Below are positions 1 to 57,688 of a DNA stretch of 64,000 nucleotides, piece after piece; position 1 is the first letter of the stretch, and each line of letters opens with the position of its first letter. The translations under genes and the position numbers were made by a program. Where the stretch lies: the NCBI RefSeq assembly GCF_011040385.1, contig NZ_JAAIKB010000011.1, forward strand, positions 1 to 64,000. Reading direction: 5' to 3'. The notes below the pieces were generated by a model. That model was not told the DNA's origin and ran no database searches. It worked only from the letters and a program-made list of their open reading frames with translations. This stretch comes from Falsiroseomonas algicola. GTDB lineage: Bacteria > Pseudomonadota > Alphaproteobacteria > Acetobacterales > Acetobacteraceae.

Positions 1-65
1 TTGCTCGCTGACCTCAACAGCCGCGAGCCTGGCACATCGATGCCGCTCAGGGGCCGTCCACCGCA

Positions 66-224
66 TCAGTTTGAGAACACCGGGCGGGTCGGCTCCGCGG
101 GTCTTTTCCGCCCCTGCCGTGTTGCCGGACTTGCCGATGCAACCAGCATCGGCGGCGCCCGGCGCCTTGCAACGACGAAAAATCCCCTGCGGATCCTCAG
201 CCGCCGGCATTCTCAAGCGGTCAC
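66..224 (-). repeat. Dispersed ~160 bp palindromic element, copy 1
   Basis: Read on the minus strand it begins GTGACCGCTTGAGAATGCCGG and ends near CCGGTGTTCTCAAAC, so its ends are imperfect inverted repeats. The inside carries the hairpin GCCGATGC-TGGTT-GCATCGGC that is identical in the copies at 12436-12599 and 57528-57688. It starts 3 nt after the stop codon of the minus-strand gene at 228-857 and is read in the same direction as that gene. It holds no convincing coding sequence. It could be a MITE-like element, a structured 3' UTR or a terminator. Bases 1-65 to its left show nothing recognisable. Confidence 0.85.
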
Positions 225-11362: not shown

Positions 11363-12334
11363 TCAGTTCGCCATCCCGTCCGCTGCCTCGATCAGCGGCT
11401 TCCAGCGCGCGATCTCCGCCCGCCAGAAGGCCTGCGCCCCCTCCGGCGTCGTGCGCTCCCCGCTCGCGGGCCCGCTGCCGAGGTCGCCCATGCGGCGGAT
11501 CACCGTCTCGTCCCGCAGCGCCGCATGCAGCGCGCGGTTCAGCCGCTCGATCACCGGGCGCGGCGTGCCGGCGGTGGCGAAGAGCATGTTCCAGCCGGAC
11601 ATGCGCATGGCGGGCAGCCCGGCCTCTGCCGTGGTGGGCACGCCGGGCAGGGCCGCCGCACGCTCCGGCGTGCTGATGGCGAAGGCGCGGATGGAGCCGG
11701 CGCGGATCTGCTCCGCATTGTTGGTGGTCTGGTCGCAGCCCATGTCGAGCGTGCCGCCGACCAGGTCGTTCATCACCAGCGCATTGCCGCGATAGGGCAC
11801 CAGCGTGACGGGGGTGCCGATGGAGGCCATGAGCAGCAGGCTGCAGAGATGGCTGGTGGAACCGACGCCGGCATTGCCGAGGTTGAGGCGCCGTCCCTCC
11901 CGCCGCACCGCCGCCACCATCTCCGCCAGGTTGGCGGCGGGGAAGTTGGGGCGGGCGATGATGGCCATCGGAACCTCGTTCACCAGGCCGATGGCTTCCA
12001 GCGCCAGCGGGTCGAAGCTGAGCTGCTTGTAGAGCGTCGGGATGGTGGCCTGGGCGAGGCTGCCGAAGAGGATGGTGTGGCCATCGGGCCGCGCCTGCGC
12101 CACGCGGGCCTGGCCGATGGAGCCGCCGGCGCCGGAGGCATTCTCCACCACGATGGTCTGGCCGAGATCGGCGCCGAGGGAGGGGGCGATCAGCCGCGCC
12201 ACCACATCCGCGGGACCGCCCGGCGCGAAGCCCACCACCATGGAGATGGGACGCGTGGGATAGGCGGGCTGGGCGGCGGCGGTGCCGGCGGCCAGCAGCA
12301 GCCCGATGACGCCGCGCCATGCGGTCCTGACCAT
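11363..12334 (-). CDS. Bug-family tripartite tricarboxylate transporter substrate-binding protein
   Basis: A 323-residue periplasmic binding protein. It has a signal peptide (about 1-22, ending TAAAQ) and then the signature Bug start YPTRPISMVVGFAPGGPADV, in which the dicarboxylate-contacting loops follow the first strand. VVENASGAGGSIG (about 62-74) and VPYRGN are also typical. These proteins feed TctA/TctB carriers or act as sensors. No TctA or TctB gene is in the window, so it is an orphan receptor here and its ligand is unknown. A palindromic repeat lies upstream at 12436-12599. Confidence 0.9.
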   Translation of the reverse strand: MVRTAWRGVIGLLLAAGTAAAQPAYPTRPISMVVGFAPGGPADVVARLIAPSLGADLGQTIVVENASGAGGSIGQARVAQARPDGHTILFGSLAQATIPTLYKQLSFDPLALEAIGLVNEVPMAIIARPNFPAANLAEMVAAVRREGRRLNLGNAGVGSTSHLCSLLLMASIGTPVTLVPYRGNALVMNDLVGGTLDMGCDQTTNNAEQIRAGSIRAFAISTPERAAALPGVPTTAEAGLPAMRMSGWNMLFATAGTPRPVIERLNRALHAALRDETVIRRMGDLGSGPASGERTTPEGAQAFWRAEIARWKPLIEAADGMAN

Positions 12335-12435
12335 CCGAAGTCCCTCCCGTTTCGTTGCCGGGAAGGTTCGCAGCTATGGCGCTGGCTGCAAGGCAGAAAA
12401 TTCACCGCATGGCGGGAACGGTTGCGTGAGGCGTC

Positions 12436-12599
12436 AGAGACCGTTTGAGAATGCCGGCGGCTGAGGATCCGCAGGGGATTTTTCGTCGCTGCCAGGAAGC
12501 GGACGCAGCCGATGCTGGTTGCATCGGCAAGTTCGCTGACGCCGCAGCGGCGGAAAAGACCCGCGGAGCCGACCCGTCCGGTGTTCTCAAATGGTCTCT
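12436..12599 (+). repeat. Dispersed ~160 bp palindromic element, copy 2
   Basis: The ends are AGAGACCGTTTGAGAA (12436-12451) and TTCTCAAATGGTCTCT (to 12599), complementary except for one G.T. Further inside, CGGCT, TCCGC, GGG and TTTT on the left pair with AAAA, CCC, GCGGA and AGCCG on the right. The apex holds the invariant hairpin GCCGATGC-TGGTT-GCATCGGC. The right end touches the stop codon of the minus-strand MFS gene (12599-12601). It is in the opposite orientation relative to its gene compared with copies 1 and 3. It also sits about 100 bp upstream of the Bug receptor start. No ORF is inside. Confidence 0.9.
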
Positions 12600-13780
12600 C
12601 AGCCCCGACGCGCTCCCCGCAGCGCCAGCCAGCAGGCGCTGCCCGTCGCCGCCATGGTCAGCGCCGTTCCGATGCCCGCGCCGTATTCGACCAGCCCGAC
12701 GATGAAGGTCATCAGCGCGCCGAAGCCCATCTGCAGCGCGCCGACCAGGGAGGAGGCGGTGCCCGCCAGCTGCGGCCGGGCGCTCAGCGCGCCGGCGATG
12801 GCGTTGGGCTGCGTCATGCCGTTGCCGACTCCGACGATCGCCATGGGCACGAAGAAGACCAGGATATGCGGCGGGAAGGCCAGCTGCCCCACCACCGCGC
12901 CGACGGACCCCGCGACGGTGATCAGCGTGCCGACGCTGAGCATGCGGAGGATGCCGAGCCGCTTGGACAGCACCCCCGCCAGCCAGTTGCCGGTGGCGAA
13001 GAAGACGGAAATGGCGGCGAAGCCGATGGCGAACTGCACCGGCGTGTAGCCCATGCCCTGGACCACCACATAGGGCGCGCCGCCGAGGAAGGCGAAGAAG
13101 ACGCCCGTCGCGCAGGCCGTCAGCGCGGCATAGGCGCGGAAGACGGGAATGGACCACAGGCTGCGATAGGCCGCGAGGATGGCGAAGAGCCCCGGCAGCG
13201 GCTGCGGCGCCGGCAGGGTCTCCGGCAGGCGCTTCCAGCTGATCAGCGCCAGCGGCAGGCCGAAGGCCAGGCAGGCCCACATGCTGGCGCGCCAGCCCAC
13301 CGTCTGGTCGAGGAAGCTGCCGAGGAGCGGCGCCAGCATGGGGGCGATGGTCATGCCCATGGTGACGTAGCCGAGGACGGAGGCGGCCTCGTCCCGCGTC
13401 CAGACGTCGCGGATGACGGCGCGGGCCAGCACGACGCCGGCGCAGGCGCCCATCGCCTGGAAGGCGCGCGCCACCACCAGCGACCCGATGCCCCCCGCCA
13501 TGGCCGCGCCCAGCGAGGCGACGGCATAGAGCGCGAGCCCCCCCATCAGCAGCGGTCGCCGCCCGAAGCGGTCCGACAGCGGCCCGTAGATCAGCTGCCC
13601 GACGCCGACCGAGAGCAGGTAGAGCGTGACGGTCAGCTGCACCGCGGAGGTGGAGGCGCCGAAATCCCGCCCCATGGAGGGCAGCGAGGGCACCAGGATC
13701 TGCATGGTGAAGGGGCCGATCGCGATCATGGCGACCAGCAGCCAGATCGGCGGACGGGGCTTCTTCGCGGCCGTGGTCAT
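12599..13780 (-). CDS. Bcr/CflA-type MFS drug efflux transporter
   Basis: A 393-residue inner-membrane permease with about 12 hydrophobic segments. The Bcr/CflA signature is present: the first helix with P-F-T-M-Q-I-L-V-P-S-L-P and the loop 2-3 motif GPLSDRFGRRP. Members export bicyclomycin, chloramphenicol or other small molecules by proton antiport. Substrate is unknown here. ATG 13780 is chosen because the first membrane helix starts soon after it. Upstream codons in the longer frame cover a hairpin-rich non-coding region. Its stop codon is immediately followed by palindromic element copy 2. Confidence 0.88.
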   Translation of the reverse strand: MTTAAKKPRPPIWLLVAMIAIGPFTMQILVPSLPSMGRDFGASTSAVQLTVTLYLLSVGVGQLIYGPLSDRFGRRPLLMGGLALYAVASLGAAMAGGIGSLVVARAFQAMGACAGVVLARAVIRDVWTRDEAASVLGYVTMGMTIAPMLAPLLGSFLDQTVGWRASMWACLAFGLPLALISWKRLPETLPAPQPLPGLFAILAAYRSLWSIPVFRAYAALTACATGVFFAFLGGAPYVVVQGMGYTPVQFAIGFAAISVFFATGNWLAGVLSKRLGILRMLSVGTLITVAGSVGAVVGQLAFPPHILVFFVPMAIVGVGNGMTQPNAIAGALSARPQLAGTASSLVGALQMGFGALMTFIVGLVEYGAGIGTALTMAATGSACWLALRGARRG

Positions 13781-56845: not shown

Positions 56846-57527
56846 GAAGTCCTCGCAAGGTTTGGCCGGATATGGGCGCCGCGCTGCGCTGCAAAAGGCC
56901 ATTCTGGGTTGCGGAGTGTTGCTGTCCGGTGCGCCTGCGCTAGCACAGGGCCAGGAAATCCGCCTGCTGATGCTGGGGGACAGCATCACCGCCGGCTACG
57001 GCCTGGCGCGGGGGGAGGGCCCGCCGGCGCGGATCGAGGCCCTGCTGCGGGCGAAGGGCCGCAACGTCCGCGTGCTGGATGCCGGCGTCTCCGGCGACAC
57101 CACGGCGGGCGGCAGGGCGCGGCTGGAATGGGCGCTGGCGGACCGGCCGCATGCCGTGATCGTGGCGCTGGGTGGCAATGACGGGCTGCGCGGGCTGACG
57201 CCCACACAGATGCGGGGAAACCTGGTCGCGATCCTCGATACCCTGGCGCGGCGGAACCTGCCCGTGCTGCTGGCGGGCATGCTGGCGCCGCCCAACCTCG
57301 GCGCCGATTACGGGCGCGAATTCGCCGCCGTGTTCAGCGACCTGGCGCGGGATCGTCCCGACATCGTGTTCTACCCCTTCCTGCTGGATGGCATCGCCGG
57401 CGAGCCCGCGCTCAACCAGCCCGACCGCATCCACCCCAACCCCCGCGGCGCCCAATTGCTGGCGGAGCGCATCCTTCCTGCCATCGAAACGCTACTGGAC
57501 CGGGTGCGGCCTTTACCCGCAGGGTAG
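56844..57527 (+). CDS. SGNH/GDSL esterase (TesA-like arylesterase)
   Basis: A 227-residue exported hydrolase (signal about 1-35, ending PALA). The SGNH blocks are complete: I GDSITAGYG with Ser47, II GVSGDTTAGG, III GGNDGLRG, and V DRIHPN with the catalytic Asp and His. It is a periplasmic esterase or lysophospholipase. ATG 56844 overlaps the start of the divergent ABC ATPase by two bases. GGGGG lies 6 nt upstream. Its TAG stop is followed at once by palindromic element copy 3. Confidence 0.93.
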   Translation: MKSSQGLAGYGRRAALQKAILGCGVLLSGAPALAQGQEIRLLMLGDSITAGYGLARGEGPPARIEALLRAKGRNVRVLDAGVSGDTTAGGRARLEWALADRPHAVIVALGGNDGLRGLTPTQMRGNLVAILDTLARRNLPVLLAGMLAPPNLGADYGREFAAVFSDLARDRPDIVFYPFLLDGIAGEPALNQPDRIHPNPRGAQLLAERILPAIETLLDRVRPLPAG

Positions 57528-57688
57528 GTGACCGCCCGAGAACGCCGGCGGCTGAGGATTCGCGAGGGATTTTTTGTCCCTGGCAGGAAGCGGGCGCCGC
57601 CGATGCTGGTTGCATCGGCAAGTCCGCTGACGAACCAGGGGCGGAAAAGCCCAGCGAAGCCGACCCGGCGGTGTTCTTGGGCGGTCAC
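57528..57688 (+). repeat. Dispersed ~160 bp palindromic element, copy 3
   Basis: It begins GTGACCGCCCGAGAACGCCGG and ends with the near-perfect complement ending TTCTTGGGCGGTCAC. It is in the same orientation relative to its gene as copy 1 and opposite to copy 2. Compared with copy 2, TTT paired with AAA has become CCC paired with GGG, and TCCGC paired with GCGGA has become TTCGC paired with GCGAA, so the stem is kept while the sequence changed. The apex hairpin GCCGATGC-TGGTT-GCATCGGC is unchanged. It starts on the base after the esterase stop codon. Confidence 0.9.

Follow-up and report, generated by a model that had tools for sequence, protein, structure and literature searches.

YPAL (RU-2), a palindromic repeat of Yersinia, is said to have been placed close after stop codons in the paper that first described it. 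It is about 168 bp long, palindromic and intergenic, with duplications of 3-26 bp and internal inverted repeats, according to PMC2229807. ERIC, NEMIS/Correia and RUP are also short non-autonomous elements whose transcripts fold; the same source gives them TA at their termini and notes that RUP ends resemble IS630-Spn1 (PMC2229807). The GTAG and CGTC REPs are palindromes of 20-40 bp with tag motifs. The termini of GTAG REPs can give flanking genes a stop codon, and CGTC repeats are reported missing in Acetobacteraceae (PMC3733652). The insertion sequences of the IS12528/IS1031 group (IS5 family) are known from Gluconobacter and Acetobacter. For the IS1031 group, a TNA target and a 3-bp repeat are reported in PMC12016507.

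We studied a window of 64,000 nucleotides of Falsiroseomonas algicola (contig NZ_JAAIKB010000011.1, positions 1 to 64,000) in which three palindromes lie at gene ends. These palindromes share with the IS12528/IS1031 group the type of inverted repeat, the TNA target and the 3-bp duplication. Unlike members of that group, they have no transposase gene and their body is a hairpin. They resemble YPAL in size, palindromy and location, but are set apart by description, having 3-bp TNA duplications, terminal repeats and a candidate IS partner. ERIC, NEMIS/Correia and RUP are likewise set apart by description, by the TA at their termini.

Copy 2 (12437..12598, plus strand) is a full-length palindromic MITE with ends of type A (GAGACC...GGTCTC), delimited by alignment, folding, BLAST and a covariance model. 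The plus strand is taken as the one with the core motifs in the form GGCTGAGG...CCGACCC. Comparison of its flanks shows a target-site duplication, TCA, at 12434..12436 and 12599..12601, the right TCA being the TGA stop of a minus-strand MFS gene (12599-13780). Copy 3 (57528..57688, plus strand) is also full-length, with variant type A ends (GTGACC...GGTCAC), and its flanking 3-mers are no longer identical (TAG/TTC). It is preceded by the TAG stop (57525-57527) of a GDSL lipase gene (56916-57527). Copy 1 (70..224, minus strand) has its outermost six or seven left bases replaced; next to its right edge is the TGA of a minus-strand gene (228-857) encoding a 209-residue protein without Pfam hit. 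The initial annotation had placed the palindromes 0-3 bases from stop codons, and the distances measured are indeed 0, 0 and 3 nt for copies 2, 3 and 1. The three palindromes that it described are all present and alignable, with a mean column identity of 86% (191 columns, flanks included). Its statement that they hold no ORF is also right, the longest start-to-stop frames wholly within copies 1, 2 and 3 having 3, 6 and 18 codons. The termini that it listed as shared are found in copies 2 and 3, but the left one is absent from copy 1, bases 1-69 belonging to the end of another element. The folding energy of copy 2 is -115.3 kcal/mol for the plus strand (shuffled mean -64.4, z -13.6, none of 200 shuffles doing as well) and -88.4 kcal/mol for the minus strand (z -7.1). 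An inner core (12471..12564, plus strand) is common to elements with other ends (model R3).

The family has at least 23 copies in the window's own genome (G000, 6.56 Mb). A BLASTN-type search with copy 2 returned 17 of them, together with a partial match to a second end-type. This type B is represented by six copies (C55:155841-156010, C12:6289, C44:12645, C4:27678, C44:309338 and C33:443476). Their inside is common to type A, their ends are CAGGCTGCGGAAGAACGG and CTAG stands on both sides in 5/6. A covariance model made from 21 own copies recovers all 23 plus one more divergent palindrome at C88. It has matches at E <= 0.001 in 24 of 99 genomes, own included. Within this genus, 14 of 15 genomes carry matches, and 23 of the 24 positive genomes belong to the same bacterial family; the single match outside that family is weak (5e-4). 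Hosts named by an exact-pattern scan (20 stretches) are Roseomonas ponticola, a Roseomonas mucosa MAG, Falsiroseomonas stagni, F. tokyonensis and an Acetobacteraceae MAG. With a second model, run on 385 genomes of the class, at least six genomes match at E <= 1e-6, namely the own genome and five in other families; in two of these five genomes (G319, G323) the copies are full-length. Family members are also carried by two RefSeq Aureimonas plasmids. When plasmids were searched, neither copy 2 nor the core of L378 gave a match. The copies counted in draft genomes are minimum numbers, since contigs terminate inside near-identical copies, as do C2, C13, C15, C21 and C23 of G012. A few copies (L004/L119 at G000 C22:70209, L170, L172, L173 and L180) are about 24 bp longer than the others (184-185 bp). 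The extra segment of L004, partly a palindrome in its own right, sits close to the apex in the right arm. A literature search of titles and abstract openings retrieved no description of the palindrome family.

The left end of copy 2, GAGACCGTTTGAGAATG, is identical over 17 bp to both ends of an intact IS5-family element of IS1031/IS12528 type on a plasmid of Lichenicola cladoniae (L319). This IS is 898 bp long, has GAGACCGTTTGAGAATGT at both ends and is flanked by a TTA/TTA duplication; IS12528 itself has the end GAGCCCTTTTGGAAATTC. The right arm of copy 2 differs from the Lichenicola end by one mismatch in the first 15 bases, then diverges. In the same genus, a transposase locus of G003 has the right end GAGTCCGTTTGAGAATCA followed by TAA (right-end sequence GAGTCCGTTTGAGAA); its left end was looked for and not found. 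The G003 protein is an IS5 family transposase (NCBIfam) that shares about 72% identity with IS12528 (Gluconobacter, Acetobacter). Close variants of the end are present in related elements of G003, G004, G056 and Roseomonas marmotae, and one of the 30 loci of PF13340 transposases read in 20 genomes has a clear A-type end (L274). A protein search of the own genome for an IS12528-like transposase (E <= 1e-20) gave no match, so the mover may have been lost there, missed in contig gaps or be external. Scanning the own genome for A ends gave 25 places at two mismatches or fewer (controls 2 and 2), 23 of them within palindromes and the others at C33:286263 and C66:356582. For B ends, 168 places were found at three mismatches or fewer, against 102 in the control, and the 11 exact places are all in B palindromes. 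The family thus has the terminal inverted repeats of an IS1031/IS12528-group MITE, together with the short length (about 162 bp) and lack of coding capacity of such elements. In an IS of Roseomonas marmotae (L318), the left end continues with AATGCTGCGGGTGAGG, which by visual comparison alone is much like the palindrome's AATGCTGGCGGCTGAGG.

Flanking 3-mers are identical at 44 of 132 independent sites (37 TNA, 6 CTA and 1 CAA), whereas 2000 re-pairings of the flanks gave 12.1 such sites on average and never more than 25. For the 37 TNA sites the logo reads GC-TNA-GC, and the six CTA duplications belong to copies with B-like ends. Both the TNA target and the 3-bp duplication of the IS1031 group are therefore seen. 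Filled and empty orthologous sites were found for window copies 2 and 3 only. At the copy 2 site, G006 and G013 have no element and their flanks join flush; in G004, one TCA stop stands there, with an unrelated 87-nt stretch before it. The copy 3 site is empty in all six relatives aligned (G004, G006, G013, G008, G001 and G002). Given that one end matches an IS1031/IS12528-type element exactly, that TNA is duplicated and that these sites are empty, the MITE reading put forward in the initial annotation is near certain for this family.

To describe placement, 143 of the 148 copies read, drawn from among the matches listed, were reduced to 137 independent sites, of which 129 have enough sequence on both sides. 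Five palindromes in which the outer GGCTGAGG motif is absent by eye (L124, L234, L239, L243 and L245) were left out of the 143, and the weak loci L148-L151 were never in the counts. Stops were called by a simple codon-usage gene caller, with no gene end within 400 nt at 14 of the 129 sites. A called stop lies at -1 to +1 of an element edge at 72 of the 129 sites (73/134 with the five omitted palindromes, one of which has a stop within 1 nt). It is on the left only at 36 sites, on the right only at 33 and on both sides at 3, in line with the claim that gene ends abut the element in either orientation. By genome set, the counts are 13/20 in the own genome, 39/78 in the rest of the genus and 20/31 in other genera. 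Thus, once copies were searched for and their distances to stops counted, as the initial annotation had advised, the family proved neither randomly placed nor limited to three copies, either of which it had held to speak against its reading. Genes run into the element and stop inside it at 14 sites, 11 of 15 such ends being at -12, -27 or -28. In the Aureimonas plasmids, where RefSeq genes are available, the end of an AMP-binding gene overlaps an edge by 2 nt, the end of corA is flush with an edge and that of an MFS gene is 6 nt away. Where the TNA duplication is intact, it holds a stop at 26 of 37 sites.

From the ends, the duplications, the two empty window sites, the stop excess, a same-genus transposase with a matching end and an IS with identical ends from the same bacterial family, all observed directly, we propose a scenario that is very probably correct. 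The terminal inverted repeats of this MITE of about 162 bp would be recognized in trans by transposases of the IS1031/IS12528 type (IS5 family). The transposase would insert the element at TNA, preferably GC-TNA-GC, and duplicate the TNA. TGA and TAA (TCA and TTA on the opposite strand) are themselves TNA, so that an insertion exactly on a stop would duplicate it, rebuild a stop before the element and leave the gene whole. Insertions within genes would mostly be lost, and survivors would hence gather on stop codons, in either orientation. It fits less well that no IS12528-like transposase was detected in the own genome at E <= 1e-20 and that the flanking 3-mers agree at just 44 of 132 sites, six of them CTA. 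The anatomy of the element would in this way explain the stop-codon location of a whole repeat family: the duplication rebuilds the stop and the insertion is close to silent. Target motif and gene preservation account for much of the stop placement, and selection against other intergenic places may add a further excess. The idea of a MITE that targets 3' ends holds in effect, with 72/129 sites at stops, although the stop-regenerating TNA duplication accounts for much of the pattern.

The body of the element is a conserved fold, with plus-strand structure kept and no evident remnant of a transposase gene. In 32 divergent copies, standard pairs fill 93.4% of pair cells against 77.2 in shuffled data, and two-sided changes occur in 33 of 45 pairs against 19.6; the signal is lost on sliding the partner, in an alignment that was fitted to the model and in which related copies were weighted as independent. 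The plus strand folds more strongly in 136 of 140 copies. On one strand, counting pairs that are commonest as Watson-Crick and leaving apex pairs out, G-U exceeds A-C by 215 to 58 (141 copies), with 27 pairs leaning to G-U, 6 leaning to A-C and 208 cells with other mismatches. An outer internal loop, GG-NN-GA-RR opposite C-GAC, has both sides present in 117/141 copies. Changes in the inner loop, AGG[x]...[y]ACG, go together: 67 of the 126 copies read have A/G and 29 have C/A, against C/G in 10, A/A in 3 and other combinations in 17, with 15 of the 141 unread. Covariation and strand asymmetry are evidence of a conserved fold, not proof of it, as the copies share ancestry. By eye the GA loops were also considered as k-turns, a reading that we do not adopt in view of the 4 by 3 outer loop.

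How much of the placement needs selection depends on the background chosen. Among non-disruptive TNA sites, stops make up 46/174 (26%) in the window and 197/1596 (12%) in the flanks of the loci; for CTNAG, the shares are 8/17 (47%) and 33/105 (31%). Target preference alone, CTNAG being rich in stops in GC-rich genomes and selection adding nothing, would fit the window, where 8 CTNAG are at stops, 9 are at other non-coding places and 14 are in genes, since 8/17 is near the observed 72/129. We judge this explanation unlikely. In the flanks, CTNAG is mostly in genes (158 coding, 33 stop, 72 non-coding), and the 26 of 37 TNA-flanked copies with a stop in the duplication exceed the 33/105 expected there (simple binomial p about 1e-8); the stop excess is thus strong against the flanks and small against the window. 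A different account gives the hairpin a function for the host, as proposed in the initial annotation (terminator, stabilizer or sRNA source): it would be kept for termination, for blocking of 3' exonucleases or as a small RNA, and the MITE machinery would only have delivered it. Strong hairpins at gene ends, covariation and the one-strand excess of G-U over A-C would suit such a device, as would the effects on mRNA stability reported or proposed for ERIC, Correia/NEMIS and YPAL in PMC2229807 and PMC10969869. The orientation relative to the gene is, on the contrary, 36:33, so that transcription from the neighboring gene would read the conserved strand in only roughly half of the cases. A scan covering copy 2 alone showed neither promoter-like sites nor terminator-like sites (GC hairpin plus T run; 0 in 12100-12900, shuffles mean 0.4). 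No Rfam family matches in the window, the best weak match at copy 2 scoring 15 bits against a cut-off of 46, and close relatives have no element of the family at the sites of copies 2 and 3. A 3' UTR device of this kind is therefore quite improbable.

The fold could also be maintained at the level of DNA only. Template switching during replication corrects imperfect palindromes and would keep self-complementarity, giving covariation without selection on any molecule; that covariation runs along the whole hairpin, ends included, agrees with this. Such upkeep would be expected to remove internal loops with mismatches, but both sides of the outer GA/GA loop are present in 117/141 copies and the inner loop is A/G or C/A in 67 and 29 of the 126 read. 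Nor does it predict a one-strand excess of G-U such as the 215:58 found, a count whose independence is overstated by relatedness. We regard it as a minority possibility. Spread as a REP/BIME-like element by a RAYT (Y1) transposase acting on a single-stranded hairpin, with strand asymmetry as its signature, hardly seems credible. Palindromy, location at gene ends, strand asymmetry and conserved mismatches are features of the kind expected, and the ends of GTAG REPs reportedly furnish stop codons (PMC3733652). Against these stand the length of about 162 bp, to be compared with 20-40 bp for REPs (PMC3733652), the type A ends GAGACC/GTGACC, without GTAG or CGTC tag by eye, and the exact match of one end to a DDE-type IS; the 3-bp TNA duplications disfavor it too. 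Since the conserved strand is not tied to one orientation of the neighboring gene, we favor a role for the element over a host 3' UTR role. As a guess, to which we give a little less than even confidence, the fold may be kept because it helps the element itself to persist or move. What benefit the fold brings to the element is a testable question.

The inner core is also met in elements of other construction. Model R2, built without L378, L379 and L393, matches G274 at 2.6e-8 and G424 at 7.7e-7 with the core alone, and no IS1031-type ends are seen there; model R3 was built with these three loci, so their R3 matches are by construction. The core model has six matches in G424 and two in G274, one of each having gone into the model. 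The hosts of L378 (G274 C6) and L379/L397 (G424 C65) belong to two other Alphaproteobacterial families. In these loci the core is in a shell GCCGGAGG...CCCCGGC with a second GC-rich hairpin. In a Terrarubrum flagellatum plasmid (L393, NZ_CP091854.1, about 1144-1416), an element of roughly 290 nt with IS1031-like ends lies between PTS genes. The inner core is one arm of its branched hairpin (match 7.6e-7 in 8.8 kb). Five palindromes, L124 (G000 C88:84834-84996), L234 and L239 (G050), L243 (G058) and L245 (G004), have another outer motif, mostly CCGGCGATG, and score 1e-12 to 2.6e-25 with model R1; L124 has ends GGGCCTGTGGATACTTGG and a core-model match of 1.3e-10. Weaker matches in G304 (1.9e-8 with R2; 14 places at 1.1e-5 or worse with the core model) are left out of the argument. 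One of these 14 places, L377 (G304 C19), is a palindrome with ends TCTAGAGCGTTTTCAGGGAC.

As the core matches occur in differing elements, the core seems to be carried by more than one shell: GAGACC/TNA, CAGGCTGCGG/CTAG, the CCGGCGATG-type palindrome, the Terrarubrum composite and the elements of two families without visible IS1031-type ends. Tentatively, and aware that the balance tips slightly the other way, we suggest that the inner hairpin may be an old mobile module of Alphaproteobacteria, acting as structured RNA or single-stranded DNA. Its plus-strand fold and two GA-type internal loops would have been selected for the spread or tolerance of the element, for instance through binding of a host or transposase protein. 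The family in any event presents a non-autonomous element with a folded body that persists across bacterial families as its ends vary, which to our knowledge is unusual for MITEs.

At bases 1-69 the window contains the end of a different mobile element, which meets copy 1 immediately before TTTGAGAA. The same join point occurs in three own-genome palindromes (window 1-69, C13:1-68 and C34 about 165-233, L043). The joined sequence, ending CTGATGCGGTGGACGGCC, is common to all three and is found with both orientations of the core. Since another element joins three copies at one fixed point, the palindromes may themselves be targets, possibly of a site-specific element directed to their end. An IS110 reading of bases 1-69 is weakened by the nearest plasmid match, which falls within a short element with inverted repeats, beyond which an IS5 transposase is annotated. 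In C34, by eye, a short IS110-like frame follows, interrupted by an IS5-like element. Read from the outside in, the end of the joined element, CTGATGCGGTGGAC, occurs twice in a short element of a Roseomonas mucosa plasmid (L342), the two copies being inverted and about 95 bp apart.
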